A stretch of DNA of 64,000 bases from Rhodanobacter sp. B05 (lineage in GTDB: Bacteria > Pseudomonadota > Gammaproteobacteria > Xanthomonadales > Rhodanobacteraceae). The stretch's first letter is position 1; each line of letters begins with the position of its first letter. Both the position numbers and the translations under genes were made by a program. Under the pieces are notes generated by a model. The model worked only from the letters and a program-made list of their open reading frames with translations. It searched no databases and was not told where the DNA came from. This document shows, one piece after another, positions 34,940 through 41,884 of the stretch. The DNA lies in the NCBI RefSeq assembly GCF_002001085.1, contig NZ_MUNU01000019.1, positions 1 to 64,000 on the forward strand, given 5' to 3'.

Positions 34940-35015
34940 GGGGCGGTAGCTCAGCTGGGAGAGCGCTACGTTCGCATCGTAGAGGTCGTGGGTTCGATCC
35001 CCATCCGCTCCACCA
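34940..35015 (+). tRNA. tRNA-Ala (anticodon CGC)
   Basis: The 76-nt gene folds as a full cloverleaf with CCA encoded. The acceptor stem GGGGCGG / CCGCTCC has the G3:U70 pair that identifies alanine tRNAs. The anticodon stem CTACG/CGTAG holds loop TTCGCAT, anticodon CGC at 34973-34975, reading GCG codons. D-loop (AGCTCAGCTGGGA) and T-loop (GGTTCGATCC) are standard. Confidence 0.97.
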
Positions 35016-35036
35016 CGCATTGGCAACACCTTCATC

Positions 35037-35075
35037 AGGCCGGTCAGCCCGCTCCCGCGGACGCCGGCCTTTTTT
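35037..35075 (+). terminator. Terminator downstream of tRNA-Ala
   Basis: AGGCCGG (35037-35043) and CCGGCCT (35064-35070) form the base of a hairpin with a GC-rich 20-nt top, followed by six T's. It ends the tRNA-Ala transcript. Confidence 0.75.
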
Positions 35076-35150
35076 CTGTCCCCGCCCGGCCCGTGCAGGC
35101 GTACCATTCTGCCGACGAGGCGTGCATCGCCAGCGACGCGTTCGAGGCAT

Positions 35151-35681
35151 ATGCCCGGGACCGGACCATCCTTCGCCGACGGCTCGACGGACGCATTGTT
35201 CGTCACGGTCTACGCGCGCCTGAAGGCGATGGCCGCGCGGCAACTGGCGAGCCGCCGCAGCGCCACGCTGGATACCACCGAACTGGTGCACGAACTGTAT
35301 CTGCGGATGGGTCAGCGCGAAGCTCTGCATTTCGAGCATCCGGCACAATTCTTCAGCTACGCCGCCCGGGCCATGCGCCATCTGCTGGTCAACCGCGCGC
35401 GCGACCGCTTGCGCCTGCGCGCCGGCGGCCAGTGGCTGAAGGTCACGCTCGACGATGATGATCTGCGACTGGCCCTCGACACGGCCAGCCAGGCGCTCGC
35501 GCTCGACGCGGCGCTCGACGCGCTCGAACAGACCGACGCACGGGCGGCCCGGGTGGTGGAACTGCACTACTTTGCCGGGTTGAGCCTGCAACAGGTCGGC
35601 GAAACCCTGGGGCTGGTCCGGCGCACGATCGACCGCGACTGGCGTTTTGCCCGTGCCTTCATCAAGGCGCGCATGGACTGA
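35151..35681 (+). CDS. ECF-like sigma factor (TIGR02999/Sigma70_ECF type)
   Basis: The 176-residue protein has region 2 ([53 protein letters not shown]) and region 4 (QTDARAARVVELHYFAGLSLQQVGETLGLVRRTIDRDWRFARAFIKARM). The TTELVHELYLR opening and the RHLLVNRARDR segment are typical of the ECF-like group found beside Ser/Thr kinase genes. No anti-sigma gene is present. A kinase-TPR gene follows after 71 bp, which suggests control by phosphorylation. The target promoters are unknown. Confidence 0.87.
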   Translation: MPGTGPSFADGSTDALFVTVYARLKAMAARQLASRRSATLDTTELVHELYLRMGQREALHFEHPAQFFSYAARAMRHLLVNRARDRLRLRAGGQWLKVTLDDDDLRLALDTASQALALDAALDALEQTDARAARVVELHYFAGLSLQQVGETLGLVRRTIDRDWRFARAFIKARMD

Positions 35682-35752
35682 GGAAGCGACGTCGCAGTCA
35701 GCCGGCCAATGGGGTTTATCGCAGGCAGGGTATTTCGAAGAGGCGGTCCAGC

Positions 35753-38515
35753 GTGGATTCCACACCGACACTGCGCGAGTTGTTCGAGACGGCAGTACAA
35801 CTGCCTGGAGTGACGCGCGAGCAATGGCTTGCCAGGCACTGCGCCGACCCGCTGCTCCGCGCCGAGATCGAAAAGTTGCTCACGGCCGACACTGCCGGCG
35901 GCGAGTTGCTGTCGTCCGGCGATGCCGCCAACGCCGCGCTCGCCATCGGCGATGCCAGCGTTGCCGCAACCTTCTCGGCAGGCAGCCGGATCGGCTCGTT
36001 CGAATTGATCGAGGTGCTGGGTGAAGGCGGTTCGGCCACCGTGTTCCGGGCCTTTCGTCAGCTCGAGGGGGTGCGTCAGGAAGTCGCCATCAAGCTGCTG
36101 GCGCGCGGCCTGTATACCCCCGAGGCGCAGAAACAGTTCCGACGGGAGCGCGAGGCGCTGACGCGCCTGCGCCATCCGGGCATCGCCCGCTTGATCGAAG
36201 GTGGCGTCACCGACAGCGGCCTCGCCTATATCGTGCTGGAACTGGTCGATGGCCAGCCCATCACGCATTACGTGCACGAACACGAGATGGGCTTGCGCCA
36301 GCGTCTGGAGTTGTTCCTGACCGTCTGCCACCCGGTCGAGGCGGCGCATCGCGCGCTCATCGTCCATCGCGACCTGAAACCATCCAACGTGCTGGTGACG
36401 GCCGAAGGCGACGTCAAGCTGCTCGATTTCGGAATCGCCAGGCTGCTCGACGAAGACGCAGGTGATGCCGCCACAGGCGCCCTGCGGGCACTCACACCGG
36501 CCTATGCCGCGCCCGAACAGTTCGCACAGACGCCGATCAGCACCGCCACCGATGTGTATGCACTTGGCGTCCTGCTCGGCGAACTGGTCACCGGCAAGCG
36601 CGCCGCGCCGCACCACGCATACGCATCATCGCCATCCGACGACACCAGCGGGGAAACATCGACAGCCGCAGCGACGCATGGGGCCCGCCCCAGGCTGCGC
36701 GGCGACCTCGATCACATCGTGCTCAAGGCGACCGCTGCCGACCCGGAACATCGCTACCCCTCGGCGGGTGCACTGGCCGATGACATCAAGCGTCATCTCG
36801 CGCGCCGGCCGGTGCTGGCGCACCCGAGTTCGCGCTGGTACCGCACCGGCAAATTCATCACCCGCTACCGCGCGGGCGTCGTCACCACGGCGGGGTTTCT
36901 GCTCGCTGTCTTCGTCGCGCTCGGCATCGCCATATGGCAGGCTGGCGTGGCGCGCGAGCAGGCCGCCCGCGCCAATGCGGTGCGTGATTTCCTGGTATCG
37001 GTTTTCCAGTCGGCCGGAGCTGGCCTGCCCAGGGACCAGCGGCCCACACCGGAGGATCTGGTCCGGCAGGCCTCGGCGCGGCTGATGAAGAAAGGCGACC
37101 TGCCCGAGACCGTGCGGGCAGATCTGCTGCTGGCGCTGGCGAAGGTTGCCCGCAGTGTCGGCGCTTACGACCAGGCGCTGGTCCTGCTCGATCACGGCGA
37201 CCCGATCATCAGCCGTCTGTATGGTCCCGGCGATGCGCCATGGTGGGATGCCCGCGTATTGCGCGCGGCCGTGCTTGAGGATGAGGCCGATGACGCCCGC
37301 GTCATCAGCCTGCTGCAGCCCGCCTACGCCGGGCTGGTGGCACGTCATGACGCCATCGGCATCGAGGGCTTGCGTGTGCTGGGCGATGCCCTGCTGCACA
37401 GCGGTCAGATCGACCGGGGTTTGTCTTTGCTGGCGCAGGCGCGCCGGACTGCCGCGCAGGCGCAACTGGTCGACGCGCAGCTGTCGGCGTCGATCGACGA
37501 GGCGACGGCGCTGCTGGACGCGGAGCACTTTCGCGCGGGCCTCGCGCGCGCCGATGCCACGCTTGCGCTATGGCAATCCAGCGGCGCGCAGGCCAACGCG
37601 CGGGTCCTCGATCTCTACGAAAGCATCGCACTCGGCGCCGAGGCCAGTGGCGACATGCAACGGGCGGAGCGCGCCTATCGCACAGCGATCACGCTGGGCG
37701 ACCGGTTCTTCGACAAGCCCAACCCGGCACAGGCATGGAATGTGGGCATGTACGGCTCGTTCCTGATCGCCCAGGGCCGTTTTGCCGAGGCCGAGCCGTA
37801 TGCGACGCGAGGACTCGAGTTGCGCCGAAGCGTATTCGGCCCGGACGATTCGCGCACGATCTACGCACTGGCCGGCATGGGCAAGTTGCGTTACGGGCAG
37901 GCGCGCTATCCGGAAGCTGTCGACTGGTACACGCAGGGCATCGACACCTGCACGCGGCTGGCCATGAAGAAGCTGGTCTGTCCGCGGCTGCTGGGCCTGC
38001 GCAGCCTTGCCTACGGCGCGGCCGGACAATTCGACAAGGCCGGCGTGGACATCGAGGCCGCACTCGAGGCGCAGCGCGCCTTCGACGGCGACCACAATCC
38101 CAACTACGCGTATGTGCTCGAACAGCTTGCCAACCTGCAGCTGCGCGAACATCGCTACAACGAGGCGATCGCGACCGCCGACCGCGTGCTGACCATCTAC
38201 CGCGCGGCCAGGGGCGGCATGATCCAGCGCGAGCTCGGCACGCGGATGGTACGCGCGCAGGCGCTGTTCGCCCTGCAGCGCAACGACGAGGCACTGACCG
38301 AACTGCTCGATATCGCGCCGAAGTACGCCAGCATGTTTCCGAGCGGAATCGCCCGCTTCGACATCACGGCTCTCGAGGCCCGTGCGCTGGCGCAGGCCCA
38401 CCGCAACGACGAGGCCGCGGTGGCCGCCCGCGACGCACTGGCGATCAAGTCGAGACCGGCAAGCGCGGATCGTGGGCTCGTCGACGAACTCACCCGGCTG
38501 GCGTCAGGCAGGTAG
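35753..38515 (+). CDS. Transmembrane serine/threonine protein kinase with TPR repeats
   Basis: The 920-residue protein has a short helical N-terminus, then a Hanks-type kinase (about residues 80-350) with P-loop LGEGGSATVFRA, VAIK lysine near 111, catalytic IVHRDLKPSNVLV near 200 and DFG near 223. A single membrane helix follows (about 375-397, VVTTAGFLLAVFVALGIAIW). The C-terminal half of about 500 residues has TPR-like repeats and would be periplasmic. The start is GTG at 35753 with AGAGGCGG upstream. All catalytic residues are present, so it should be active. The likely partner is the upstream sigma factor. Confidence 0.9.
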   Translation: MDSTPTLRELFETAVQLPGVTREQWLARHCADPLLRAEIEKLLTADTAGGELLSSGDAANAALAIGDASVAATFSAGSRIGSFELIEVLGEGGSATVFRAFRQLEGVRQEVAIKLLARGLYTPEAQKQFRREREALTRLRHPGIARLIEGGVTDSGLAYIVLELVDGQPITHYVHEHEMGLRQRLELFLTVCHPVEAAHRALIVHRDLKPSNVLVTAEGDVKLLDFGIARLLDEDAGDAATGALRALTPAYAAPEQFAQTPISTATDVYALGVLLGELVTGKRAAPHHAYASSPSDDTSGETSTAAATHGARPRLRGDLDHIVLKATAADPEHRYPSAGALADDIKRHLARRPVLAHPSSRWYRTGKFITRYRAGVVTTAGFLLAVFVALGIAIWQAGVAREQAARANAVRDFLVSVFQSAGAGLPRDQRPTPEDLVRQASARLMKKGDLPETVRADLLLALAKVARSVGAYDQALVLLDHGDPIISRLYGPGDAPWWDARVLRAAVLEDEADDARVISLLQPAYAGLVARHDAIGIEGLRVLGDALLHSGQIDRGLSLLAQARRTAAQAQLVDAQLSASIDEATALLDAEHFRAGLARADATLALWQSSGAQANARVLDLYESIALGAEASGDMQRAERAYRTAITLGDRFFDKPNPAQAWNVGMYGSFLIAQGRFAEAEPYATRGLELRRSVFGPDDSRTIYALAGMGKLRYGQARYPEAVDWYTQGIDTCTRLAMKKLVCPRLLGLRSLAYGAAGQFDKAGVDIEAALEAQRAFDGDHNPNYAYVLEQLANLQLREHRYNEAIATADRVLTIYRAARGGMIQRELGTRMVRAQALFALQRNDEALTELLDIAPKYASMFPSGIARFDITALEARALAQAHRNDEAAVAARDALAIKSRPASADRGLVDELTRLASGR

Positions 38516-38704
38516 CGACTCCAGCGATACCTCGCCAGGCAGGGTACCCAGCGGACCCCGCCCCCTGCTCCGTCGCCCGAGCGGCGCCACGCTCCCCACA
38601 TGTCGCACTTTGCCGGCAGGCGGTGTTTTCCGTGATGCCACGCCCGCCAATGGGTCGAGGCAGGGGAACGCCGCGCAACGACCATCCGAAGGGGAGACCT
38701 CGCC

Positions 38705-40144
38705 ATGGAGCTTCATCGCATTATCCGATCCACCGCCAGCCGAGGCCTGCTGGTCCCGGCCATCGTCCTGCTGATGGCGTGGGCCGCCATGCCGGCCCAG
38801 GCCGCCAACGAACAGTCACGACGCGCCGATCCGCTGATCAGCGTCGATCCCTCCGGCTCGCTGCAAACCAGCACGCCGAGCGGCAGCATCGACAGCAGCA
38901 ATCCGTTCTTCCAGAGCCTCGGCAGCAACGGGCGCTCGTGCAATTCCTGCCACCGCCAGGCCGAGGGCTGGACGATCTCCGCCGCGGAGATACGCCAGCG
39001 CTTCAACCAGACCAGCGGCACCGATCCGATCTTTGCCCTGGTCGATGGTGCGGTATCGCCGCTGGCGGATGTATCCAGCGTCTATGCGCGACGCATCGCC
39101 TACGCCATGCTGGTCAATCGCGGCGTGCTGCGCATCGGCCTGCCGCTGCCGGCCCATGCCGAATTCAGGCTGACCGCGGTGGACGACCCCTACGGCTACG
39201 CCAGTGCACGCGAGCTGTCGCTGTTCCGTCGCCCGCTGCCGGCCACCAATCTGATCTGGGATACCGCGATGATGTGGGACGGCCGCGAGACCTTCGCGCC
39301 GTTCAAACCGCCGATGGACGCGGGCATCGACATCGCCGACATCCATGCCAGTCTGACCTCGCAAGCGCGCGACGCGACGCTTGGTCATGCGCAGGCTGTC
39401 ACCGCGCCCAGCGATGCCGTCCTCAAGCAGATCGTCGACTTCGAATCGCATCTGTTCACGGCACAACTGGTCGACAATCGCGCCGGGCGACTCAACGGCG
39501 GCGGCGGCATGGGTGGCGCCGGCATTCTTGCCCAGCAGCGCTTCTGGGTGGGCATCAATGATGTGCTCGGCGGCGACCCCACCGAAGATCCGTTCGATGC
39601 GAAAGCGATGCGCCTGTTCGACGACTGGAATGACCAGAACGCGAACCTGAGTCTCGATCCACGCGACCATGCGCGTGCCGCCATAGCGCGCGGCGAGCAG
39701 CTTTTCAACAGCATGCCCATCGCGATCAGCGGCGTGACCGGCCTGAACGATGTCACCGGCGTACCGGTCATCCAGGGCAGTTGCACGAGCTGCCACGACG
39801 CACCCAACATCGGCAACCACTCGGTCGCGTTGCCGATCAACATCGGCATTGCCGACGCCAGCCGGCGCACCCCGGACCTGCCGCTGTACACGCTGACCCG
39901 CTACAGCACCGGCGAAGTGGTGCAGACCACCGATCCCGGGCTGGCGATGATCACCGGCAAATGGGCCGACATCGGCAAGTTCAAGGGGCCGATCCTGCGC
40001 GGCCTGGCAGCGCGCGCGCCCTACTTCCACAACGGTTCGGCGGCGACGTTGCTGGACGCGGTGAATTTCTACGACACCCGCTTCAACATCGGCATGAGCG
40101 CGCAGCAGAAAAGCGACCTGGTGGCGTTCCTGTCGGCGCTCTAG
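38705..40144 (+). CDS. Exported di-heme c-type protein, cytochrome c peroxidase-like
   Basis: The 479-residue protein has a signal peptide (ending near AMPAQAAN) and two heme c sites, CNSCH near residue 80 and CTSCH near residue 360. The wide spacing and the motifs WDTAMMWDGRETFAPF and FKGPILRGLAARAPYFHNGSAATLLDAVNFYDTRF fit the MauG/bacterial cytochrome c peroxidase superfamily. Such proteins use peroxide or oxidise substrates in the periplasm; the substrate here is unknown. It lies about 190 bp after the kinase gene on the same strand. The ribosome-binding site is AAGGGGAG. Confidence 0.85.
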   Translation: MELHRIIRSTASRGLLVPAIVLLMAWAAMPAQAANEQSRRADPLISVDPSGSLQTSTPSGSIDSSNPFFQSLGSNGRSCNSCHRQAEGWTISAAEIRQRFNQTSGTDPIFALVDGAVSPLADVSSVYARRIAYAMLVNRGVLRIGLPLPAHAEFRLTAVDDPYGYASARELSLFRRPLPATNLIWDTAMMWDGRETFAPFKPPMDAGIDIADIHASLTSQARDATLGHAQAVTAPSDAVLKQIVDFESHLFTAQLVDNRAGRLNGGGGMGGAGILAQQRFWVGINDVLGGDPTEDPFDAKAMRLFDDWNDQNANLSLDPRDHARAAIARGEQLFNSMPIAISGVTGLNDVTGVPVIQGSCTSCHDAPNIGNHSVALPINIGIADASRRTPDLPLYTLTRYSTGEVVQTTDPGLAMITGKWADIGKFKGPILRGLAARAPYFHNGSAATLLDAVNFYDTRFNIGMSAQQKSDLVAFLSAL

Positions 40145-40154
40145 ACATGACTGT

Positions 40155-40754
40155 TCAATGCACGTCCTGTCGCATCGCGCGAATCTTGCGCTGCACCTGT
40201 TTGATCGTGTCGAAGCCCATCGTGGCTTCGCTCAAATCGCCGTCGAAGCGGAAACCGCCGGGCTGGCTTGAAAATATCAGCGGCTGGGGCAGATCATCAC
40301 GCCCTGCGGTCATGCAACTGCCCAGCACGATGATGTCGGTCTGCTCGCCGTGATGCGAAAACGCCACGGCGAGGATCTTGTGGCAAAGCTCATTCCACAG
40401 ATAGCCCGGCGGCATCGGCAAGGTGTAGGCCAGAGCACCATCGCGCCAGAGTTCGAAACCGATCAGGTCGGTCTCGTGTTCGGCCGGGTTGGCAAGGTGA
40501 CGGCGGGCCAGAAAGCAGACCTTGCCGAAGGGCGGCAGGCTGACGTTGAAGCGGGTGCCGGCAACCGCGTCGGCACCGGACGTGCCCGACTGGTCGCACT
40601 GCGCGACGGTGGCCTGCGCGACCGTCGACGCGGCGTCCGTCGGGGCCAGCGCGCAGGCCGGCAGGCACCCGATCAACGCCGCCGCCAGGACAGGAATCTG
40701 CGCCCCGCGACGGATGCCGGCGAGTGCGCGCCCAACGGTTGCCCAATGGCCCAT
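40155..40754 (-). CDS. Predicted lipoprotein, candidate immunity protein to the GH19 neighbour
   Basis: The 199-residue protein has a hydrophobic signal ending in the lipobox LIGC (Cys about residue 30); LPAC is a second possibility at 34. The residue after the Cys is not Asp, so sorting to the outer membrane is expected. The mature part belongs to no family I recognise and contains several further cysteines. Its start is separated by one base from the stop of the GH19 gene, so the two are translated together. That arrangement, and its likely periplasmic position, are what an immunity protein to a cell-wall hydrolase would have; this is inference. Confidence 0.6.
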   Translation of the reverse strand: MGHWATVGRALAGIRRGAQIPVLAAALIGCLPACALAPTDAASTVAQATVAQCDQSGTSGADAVAGTRFNVSLPPFGKVCFLARRHLANPAEHETDLIGFELWRDGALAYTLPMPPGYLWNELCHKILAVAFSHHGEQTDIIVLGSCMTAGRDDLPQPLIFSSQPGGFRFDGDLSEATMGFDTIKQVQRKIRAMRQDVH

Positions 40755-40755
40755 G

Positions 40756-41625
40756 TCAACAGAGTCCCGGCCAGTTGTCCCACGGGTAGCGCGTCAGCAG
40801 CGCCGTGGCGCGCTTCCGGTAGTGTTCGCGCTCGTTGTAGCCCAGCGCCTTGGCATTGATCCTCAAGGTCAGGTTCTTGTAGTTCCCATGATCGGCGTAC
40901 GGATTGAGATGCGCCTTGTCCCAGAACCAGGCCGCGGAATACACGGCGATTTTCGGTTGCTCCAGCAGCTCCGGATGATTCAGCGCATCGACGCCGGTGT
41001 CCTTCGCAAACGCCGCATAGTTGTCGCGGAAGGTCAGCTGCATCAGTCCGCGACCACGGTATTTCCAGCCGTCGCCGCTCTTTTCGTCGCCGTTGCCATT
41101 CGTGCCGGCATAGACGAAGTTGGCCAGCTTTTCCGGATGTCCGACGTAGTCGGCCGCATTGGCGGTCTTGAAGGCGGTGGGAAATGTCTCTTTCAGATGC
41201 TTCGCATCACGGTACCAGGTCGATTCCACCAGCTTGCGAAACTGACTCGATTCCACCGCGACCTGGCCCAGGAACGCCGCCATGCGCCGAACGGTGTTGA
41301 TCTGGTACTTCATCAGGTAGGCGTTCAGCGGTGCGACAAACTGCTCGGCCCTGGGCAGGCTCAAGTGCGGCAGCAAGGCGCACAGGAATTTCGCGGTGAG
41401 CCGGGCGAGATCGTTGGACACCAGCAGGAAACGGGGCTCGGCACGAAACAGATCGGCGCCGATGGCGCTGCTGTGCGGGAACAGGCTGGCGCCGGCCGCC
41501 GAACCAGGCAGCCCGGCCGCGCTAAAGACACCCAGGCCCCTGCTGTAGACGCCGACACCGGCAAGCGCCGATCCGCTCGCCCCGGAAAACAGGGCATTCC
41601 AGGAATCATGATCGTGACAATGCAT
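40756..41625 (-). CDS. Glycoside hydrolase family 19 (endolysin/chitinase-like) protein with N-terminal extension
   Basis: The 289-residue protein has a C-terminal GH19 domain (about residues 95-289). Family features are NTVRRMAAFLGQVAVESSQFRKLVES (catalytic Glu region), GDGWKYRGRGLMQLTFRDNYAAFAKDTG and EQPKIAVYSAAWFW. The domain is of the type that cuts peptidoglycan or chitin. The first 90 residues are Gly/Ala/Ser-rich, with no clear signal peptide (MHCHDHDSWNALFSGASG...). Export through a contact-dependent system or by lysis is therefore more likely than by Sec. A lipoprotein gene follows one base later. No phage genes are nearby. Confidence 0.82.
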   Translation of the reverse strand: MHCHDHDSWNALFSGASGSALAGVGVYSRGLGVFSAAGLPGSAAGASLFPHSSAIGADLFRAEPRFLLVSNDLARLTAKFLCALLPHLSLPRAEQFVAPLNAYLMKYQINTVRRMAAFLGQVAVESSQFRKLVESTWYRDAKHLKETFPTAFKTANAADYVGHPEKLANFVYAGTNGNGDEKSGDGWKYRGRGLMQLTFRDNYAAFAKDTGVDALNHPELLEQPKIAVYSAAWFWDKAHLNPYADHGNYKNLTLRINAKALGYNEREHYRKRATALLTRYPWDNWPGLC

Positions 41626-41680
41626 GGATCGAATGCCCCGGCGGGAGCATCCCGCCTGTGTGGAATGGATCGGAATGTCG

Positions 41681-41884
41681 CTAGATTCTCACAAAATACG
41701 GTATCGCCATCAGCGCCACGCCGATAACCAGCAACCACGCGGTGCCGCTCACGACGTAGGGAAACACCATCAGCGCGACCCCGCACACCAGCGGCACGAT
41801 CGCGCGCTGTTTCCGCCCGTAGACGAAGAAGCCCAGCCCGATCGAGCCGAACAGCAAACCCCACCACAGCGTCGATGCGTTCAT
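41681..41884 (-). CDS. Small two-helix membrane protein
   Basis: The 67-residue protein (MNASTLWWGLLFGSIGLGFFVYGRKQRAIVPLVCGVALMVFPYVVSGTAWLLVIGVALMAIPYFVRI) has two or three membrane segments. It resembles small proteins annotated in related genomes as amino acid transport proteins, a label with little experimental basis. I start it at 41884; an upstream in-frame extension looks non-coding. It sits between the GH19 gene and the divergent peptidase gene. Confidence 0.65.
   Translation of the reverse strand: MNASTLWWGLLFGSIGLGFFVYGRKQRAIVPLVCGVALMVFPYVVSGTAWLLVIGVALMAIPYFVRI

Follow-up and report, generated by a model that had tools for sequence, protein, structure and literature searches.

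The N-terminal extension had been described as Gly/Ala-rich in the note on the sequence.

The 64,000-nucleotide stretch analysed here, the window, is the segment 1-64000 of contig C11 in genome G000 and carries two closely spaced genes on its minus strand. The first (40756..41625, minus strand) encodes a GH19 protein of 289 amino acids, a proposed effector of a type VI secretion system (T6SS); its open reading frame and stop codon were read directly, and its assignment is supported by a match to PF00182 and by relatives in the PDB. It is followed by the gene for a 199-residue lipoprotein (40155..40754, minus strand), the proposed periplasmic immunity protein, and the intergenic region consists of the single base at 40755 (minus strand). 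Direct reading of the DNA (TGA-C-ATG) bears out both reading frames, their strand and the one-base gap given in the original prediction. This spacing is beyond chance, since one base also separates the genes in G032, G036:C95 and L070 and none in G036:C226, which together with G000 are all five loci with a GH19 gene or its broken copy directly upstream of the lipoprotein gene. Beside the pair and outside it lies TM67 (41681..41884, minus strand), a gene for a 67-residue membrane protein that flanks the insertion described below, and a tRNA-Ala(cgc) gene is found at 34940..35015 on the plus strand. Two more proteins, one of kinase-TPR type and one resembling a di-haem cytochrome c peroxidase, are encoded in the stretch from this tRNA gene to TM67 (34940-41690), which may be a variable region.

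The GH19 protein consists of a Gly/Ala-rich N-terminal extension of about 72 residues (residues 1-72; 41410..41625, minus strand) and a catalytic part (residues 73-289; 40759..41409, minus strand). PF00182 matches residues 185-238 with an E-value of 9.4e-8 (32.6 bits against a curated cut-off of 25.5), PHROG endolysin profiles (PHROG 181) match residues 73-280 with a best E-value of 7.1e-72, and solved GH19-type enzymes in the PDB match with a best E-value of 1.6e-33. PDB entry 8xcl, named only as an EF-hand protein, also matches (E 5e-17); we take it to be TseP of Aeromonas dhakensis. E125 and E134 are invariant in all 24 rows of alignment A2, from which the broken or short sequences P0024-P0027 and P0030 were omitted, as well as in the 14 rows of alignment A3, and by reference to the SPN1S endolysin we assume that they form the catalytic pair. 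Judged from its sequence, we propose that the protein is a peptidoglycan hydrolase.

The extension had been described as Gly/Ala-rich and devoid of a clear signal peptide, and a Sec signal on the GH19 protein had been named as a finding that would refute the toxin reading. The description holds and no such signal was seen by a hydropathy script, which was used for both proteins in place of a signal-peptide program: the strongest 11-residue window within the first 60 residues scores 1.35 and is preceded by two acidic residues and no lysine or arginine. Between G000 and L070, dN/dS amounts to 0.67 in the extension and 0.14 in the catalytic part, marking the extension as weakly constrained. We detected none of the known T6SS sorting domains on the protein, and its N-terminus is poorly conserved; both points count against a T6SS effector. 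At the other end, the profile match extends to residue 280 of 289 and therefore leaves, judged by length and not by an XVIPCD model, no room for a C-terminal XVIPCD. Several GH19 relatives (P0031, P0033, P0035, P0038) open with a short PGP[IL]G-like motif, which was considered as a new sorting signal and dropped, as the window protein has no clear copy of it and its extension is weakly constrained.

The signal sequence and lipobox of the lipoprotein occupy residues 1-34 (40653..40754, minus strand). By the same script, its strongest 11-residue window reaches 2.43, with three lysine or arginine residues before it. The lipoprotein signal and the absence of Asp at position +2, both part of the original prediction, are retained, while the predicted lipobox cysteine is probably a different one: every one of the 18 sequences in the lipoprotein clade of alignment A1 has Cys34 (LPAC-A), mostly as L-[PS]-[ATV]-C followed by Ala, whereas Cys30 (LIGC-L) is absent from seven of the 18. 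The protein is probably anchored through Cys34, and the LIGC of the window sequence fits the lipobox consensus too. Alignment A5 contains a second, more distant clade with a cleavable-looking signal instead of a lipobox. Four further cysteines (C53, C80, C124 and C147) are invariant in the lipoprotein alignments and look like two stabilising disulfides. Fused, frameshifted or partial sequences (P0007, P0017 and P0018) were omitted from A1, and these together with further rows from A4 and A5. Several of the omitted database proteins look as though a broken GH19 gene lies next to the lipoprotein gene or has been fused with it; they were left uncounted.

As had been stated from the sequence, the lipoprotein matches no known family: none in Pfam, NCBIfam, PHROG, PADLOC or the PDB sequences scored above its cut-off. 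Pfam, including LprI (PF07007), gave no match up to an E-value of 1, the sole NCBIfam match lies far below its cut-off, and a profile of 29 lipoprotein sequences matched nothing among PDB sequences at E-values up to 10, so that no kinship with XAC2610 (PDB 4QTQ) or another solved inhibitor was detected by sequence. The structure model has a mean pLDDT of 72, with residues 1-48 under 50, and its fold matches are weak. PliI (PDB 4pj2) matches the model with a Z-score below 8, tied with unrelated propeller fragments and at 11% identity, and the modelled likeness to the PliI fold is suggestive only; the best Foldseek match is a protein other than PliI (E 0.08). XAC2610 (4QTQ) is not among the 50 matches listed in either fold search, which excludes nothing. 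A keyword search of the open-access literature returned no paper describing the family, a weak result since an unnamed family has no keyword, and this immunity family appears to be undescribed.

A single-sequence search found the lipoprotein in three of 100 genomes, own included, and profile searches in four of 233 family genomes and in one of 369 genomes of a class sample, which is its own. Protein searches yielded 18 relatives by sequence and at least 33 with a profile (8000 candidates scored). No match was obtained in 50,697 phage records at an E-value of 1e-5, nor in 72,556 plasmid records, and the predicted lack of a phage lysis context holds as far as tested. Seven lipoprotein loci were read as DNA: G000, G032, G036:C95, G036:C226, G036:C318, G245 and L070, the last being a 3.8-kb contig of a public metagenome-assembled genome (MAG) in which both genes are open. 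A GH19 gene or a broken copy of one lies directly upstream of the lipoprotein gene in five of the seven (G000, G032, G036:C95, G036:C226 and L070), so that a lipoprotein found mostly without GH19 neighbours, the other refuting case named beforehand, did not appear. The contig of G036:C318 ends 225 bases upstream of the lipoprotein homologue, and these bases contain a 25-residue resemblance to the GH19 C-terminus (52%, E 0.015), by its sequence a possible GH19 remnant that was excluded from the GH19 counts. In G245, there is no close GH19 gene upstream of the homologue and the locus lies within a T6SS cluster.

Starting from GH19, the best 80 of 477 related loci were taken from a genome-contig collection, and a motif script found the GH19 reading frame in 73 of the 80. 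Searched by tblastn, these 80 best loci and 27 family loci contain the lipoprotein near GH19 only in L070 and L071, and L071 appears to be G036:C226. An exact-peptide-pattern scan of the contig collection with the single lipoprotein found no relative, yet L070 and L071 in that collection carry one. Two lipoprotein paralogues (P0009 and P0011, contig 87185) perhaps represent a duplicated immunity gene; their listed longest contig matches that of the GH19 relative P0022. Across the family loci L026-L049, most other GH19 reading frames are about 420-460 residues long, often with a Gln-rich C-terminal tail, and these tails presumably resemble those of effectors of type IV secretion systems (T4SS), which carry an XVIPCD.

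In ten genomes of the genus, the S9 peptidase gene and TM67 are adjacent and the pair is missing. Altogether 22 S9 peptidase loci were compared, own included: TM67 is present in the own locus and the ten others, the remaining 11 gave no TM67 hit (one of them, L153, has only 54 bases of flank), and GH19 and the lipoprotein occur at the own locus alone. Compared with G036:C95 and L070, the window is homologous at the DNA level up to a point only a few bases from where the lipoprotein gene stops. Because ten genomes keep the site without the pair and the homology ends close to this stop codon, we regard the pair as an inserted cassette. A tRNA-Ala(cgc) gene lies beside TM67 in three of the ten pair-less loci and, within the available flank, not in the other seven nor in L070; in G036:C95, TM67 and tRNA-Ala(cgc) enclose the pair together with an integrase fragment, and in the window this tRNA gene is 5 kb away from the pair. 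The insertion site looks like a tRNA-Ala-associated hot spot, a reading that draws on three loci out of ten. In the vicinity of the window pair, the end of the tRNA gene was not found repeated.

In G032 and G036:C95, the GH19 gene is frameshifted and the lipoprotein gene is open, and L070 is an intact relative of the G036:C95 copy. A broken lipoprotein gene beside an intact GH19 gene was found in none of the seven loci. The lipoprotein shows a dN/dS of 0.20-0.28 in five comparisons. The effector would appear to decay while the immunity gene stays, with just two, and hence few, cases of toxin loss. Over eight pairs the GH19 protein and the lipoprotein co-diverge (r 0.93, Mantel p 0.0006; four of the eight pairs were matched only by both proteins sharing the listed longest-contig value), which speaks for co-inheritance and not for interaction.

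This history bears on the possibility that the GH19 protein is a housekeeping enzyme remodelling its owner's wall, with the lipoprotein as a dedicated restraining regulator. Tight coupling and a periplasmic partner would fit such a role, and G051 encodes another GH19 protein, distinct from that of the window, which bears a Sec-like signal and has a secreted neighbour; presence in only four of 233 family genomes, insertion as a cassette, a broken GH19 gene in two carriers and the missing Sec-like signal of the window protein all argue against it, and we consider it quite unlikely. The G051 locus itself (L059:2655-4075) shows the Sec-like-signal GH19 gene, two bases, then the gene for the secreted protein, with pilus-like genes around (Tad/Flp-like as judged by eye), and the arrangement possibly serves pilus assembly.

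A link to type VI secretion emerges from the gene neighbourhood of the homologues. G036:C226 carries an FHA fragment and VgrG (PF05954, E 1.4e-83), followed by a divergent GH19 gene 0.5 kb from VgrG and a lipoprotein homologue that is 38% identical over the full alignment and 48-54% locally and runs off the contig. Over 2.8 kb, this region is 90.6% identical to G245, a member of another genus, and 72-74% identical to Rhodanobacter T6SS regions, so that it may be mis-binned in its MAG or perhaps transferred. It still ties the lipoprotein family to the T6SS, but perhaps not in Rhodanobacter. In G245:C172, a lipoprotein homologue is found among VgrG, a GH19-like reading frame (PF00182 E 1.5e-4, under the cut-off), two LprI-domain reading frames and PAAR. 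The corresponding L050:4286-8455 (G245) holds the GH19-like frame, the two LprI-domain frames, the lipoprotein homologue and an unclassified frame within about 4 kb, and this VgrG region resembles an immunity island. GH19-like reading frames also lie near VgrG in the T6SS regions of G006, where the frame passes PF00182 (E 5.7e-6), and G017, and VgrG regions of the family therefore carry GH19-type frames repeatedly.

The own genome encodes VipA, VipB, Hcp, a gp25-like protein, TssF, a ClpV-like AAA protein, TssK (VasE), DotU, IcmF, VgrG and PAAR, at two places (C13 near 125-134 kb and C11 near 506-518 kb). VipB was found in all three of G000, G032 and G036 and VgrG in all four of G000, G032, G036 and G245; T6SS genes are thus present in all four searched lipoprotein-bearing genomes. 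With 13 of 28 genomes of the genus carrying a T6SS, the system is too common to prove a link, and the argument therefore rests on gene neighbourhood. The window pair lies away from VgrG, the one match in the genome being about 474 kb off on the same contig. Among the best 80 GH19 loci of 477 relatives, T6SS markers occur near one, L071 and hence G036:C226 again, and at the 27 family GH19 loci, each with only about 1.5 kb of flank, near none.

The pair could also be a toxin and its immunity protein released by another route, either by cell lysis or through a T4SS. XAC2609 of Xanthomonas citri, a GH19 effector of a T4SS (X-Tfe), and its lipobox inhibitor XAC2610 (X-Tfi) offer a precedent (PMC10933484). 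The VirB4 family (PF03135) was found in none of G000, G032 and G036, and the GH19 match to residue 280 of 289 leaves no space for a C-terminal XVIPCD, so we hold such a route to be rather unlikely. Type VI secretion is favoured over a VirB-type T4SS, because homologues adjoin VgrG, the own genome has T6SS genes and VirB4 is missing from those three genomes. A domesticated phage endolysin with a leftover spanin-like lysis partner is very unlikely. In its favour, the nearest counterparts of the GH19 core are phage-type endolysins, with matches in 1171 phage records (each below 60% identity), and G036:C95 has an integrase fragment behind the pair; but the lipoprotein is unmatched in the 50,697 phage records, its 199 residues with four conserved cysteines are unlike the small, proline-rich spanin Rz1, a homologous pair adjoins VgrG, and among the best 80 of 477 GH19 loci and the 27 family loci the lipoprotein accompanies only L070 and L071.

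We therefore favour, with a probability of roughly two in three, the reading of the pair as an antibacterial T6SS effector and its immunity protein, the GH19 protein travelling as cargo of Hcp, VgrG or PAAR and the lipoprotein acting as periplasmic inhibitor. The toxin-immunity relationship proposed from the sequence is supported by the coupling and the VgrG-linked homologues, and from these we infer toxicity, inhibition and the loading of the VgrG-unlinked window copy. The GH19 hydrolase, devoid of an export signal of its own, would most likely be loaded onto Hcp, VgrG or PAAR of the own T6SS, passed on to a Gram-negative neighbour, and in the periplasm of that cell cut the glycan chains of peptidoglycan. 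The lipoprotein would be exported by Sec, be anchored probably via Cys34 in the owner's periplasm, and probably block the active site of GH19 protein arriving from sister cells.

Lysozyme-type hydrolases are known T6SS weapons, as the reports on WHIX effectors and TseP indicate (PMC12135965, PMC11893102). The closest tested analogue of the window pair is XAC2609/XAC2610, which likewise combines a cytoplasmic GH19 peptidoglycan hydrolase with a lipobox periplasmic inhibitor; XAC2609 differs in its T4SS delivery via a C-terminal XVIPCD (PMC10933484), whereas the window protein has no such tail and VirB4 is found in none of three genomes. WHIX effectors are similarly T6SS-linked, with GH19 domains and LprI/DUF1311 neighbours as probable periplasmic immunity proteins (PMC12135965). 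Unlike the window protein, whose 72-residue extension, going by its length, leaves little room for one, they possess their own WHIX export domain, and their neighbours are LprI, which the window immunity candidate is not (PMC12135965). TseP/TsiP of Aeromonas dhakensis is a T6SS pair of lysozyme-type effector and immunity protein; TseP is a two-domain amidase-lysozyme (PMC11893102), while the window protein contains a GH19 domain only.

A more far-reaching view, which we regard as doubtful, is that the two genes form a mobile cassette moving between a T6SS VgrG slot and the tRNA-Ala hot spot, with the GH19 protein as orphan cargo without a known sorting domain and the lipoprotein as a member of a new family of periplasmic GH19 inhibitors, often kept after toxin loss and guarding against rivals. 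From the intact pair, through a broken toxin whose immunity gene is retained and a lone immunity gene in a T6SS cluster, to the site lacking both, the loci would form a natural series for testing how immunity genes outlast toxins. If the effector-immunity reading is true, the known immunity proteins would gain a family of lysozyme-type inhibitors that appears not to have been described before. The pair would then be the T6SS counterpart, in the Rhodanobacter family, of XAC2609 and TfcB, the two Xanthomonadales GH19 weapons found in the literature search, both of which are T4SS effectors (PMC10933484, PMC11253643).
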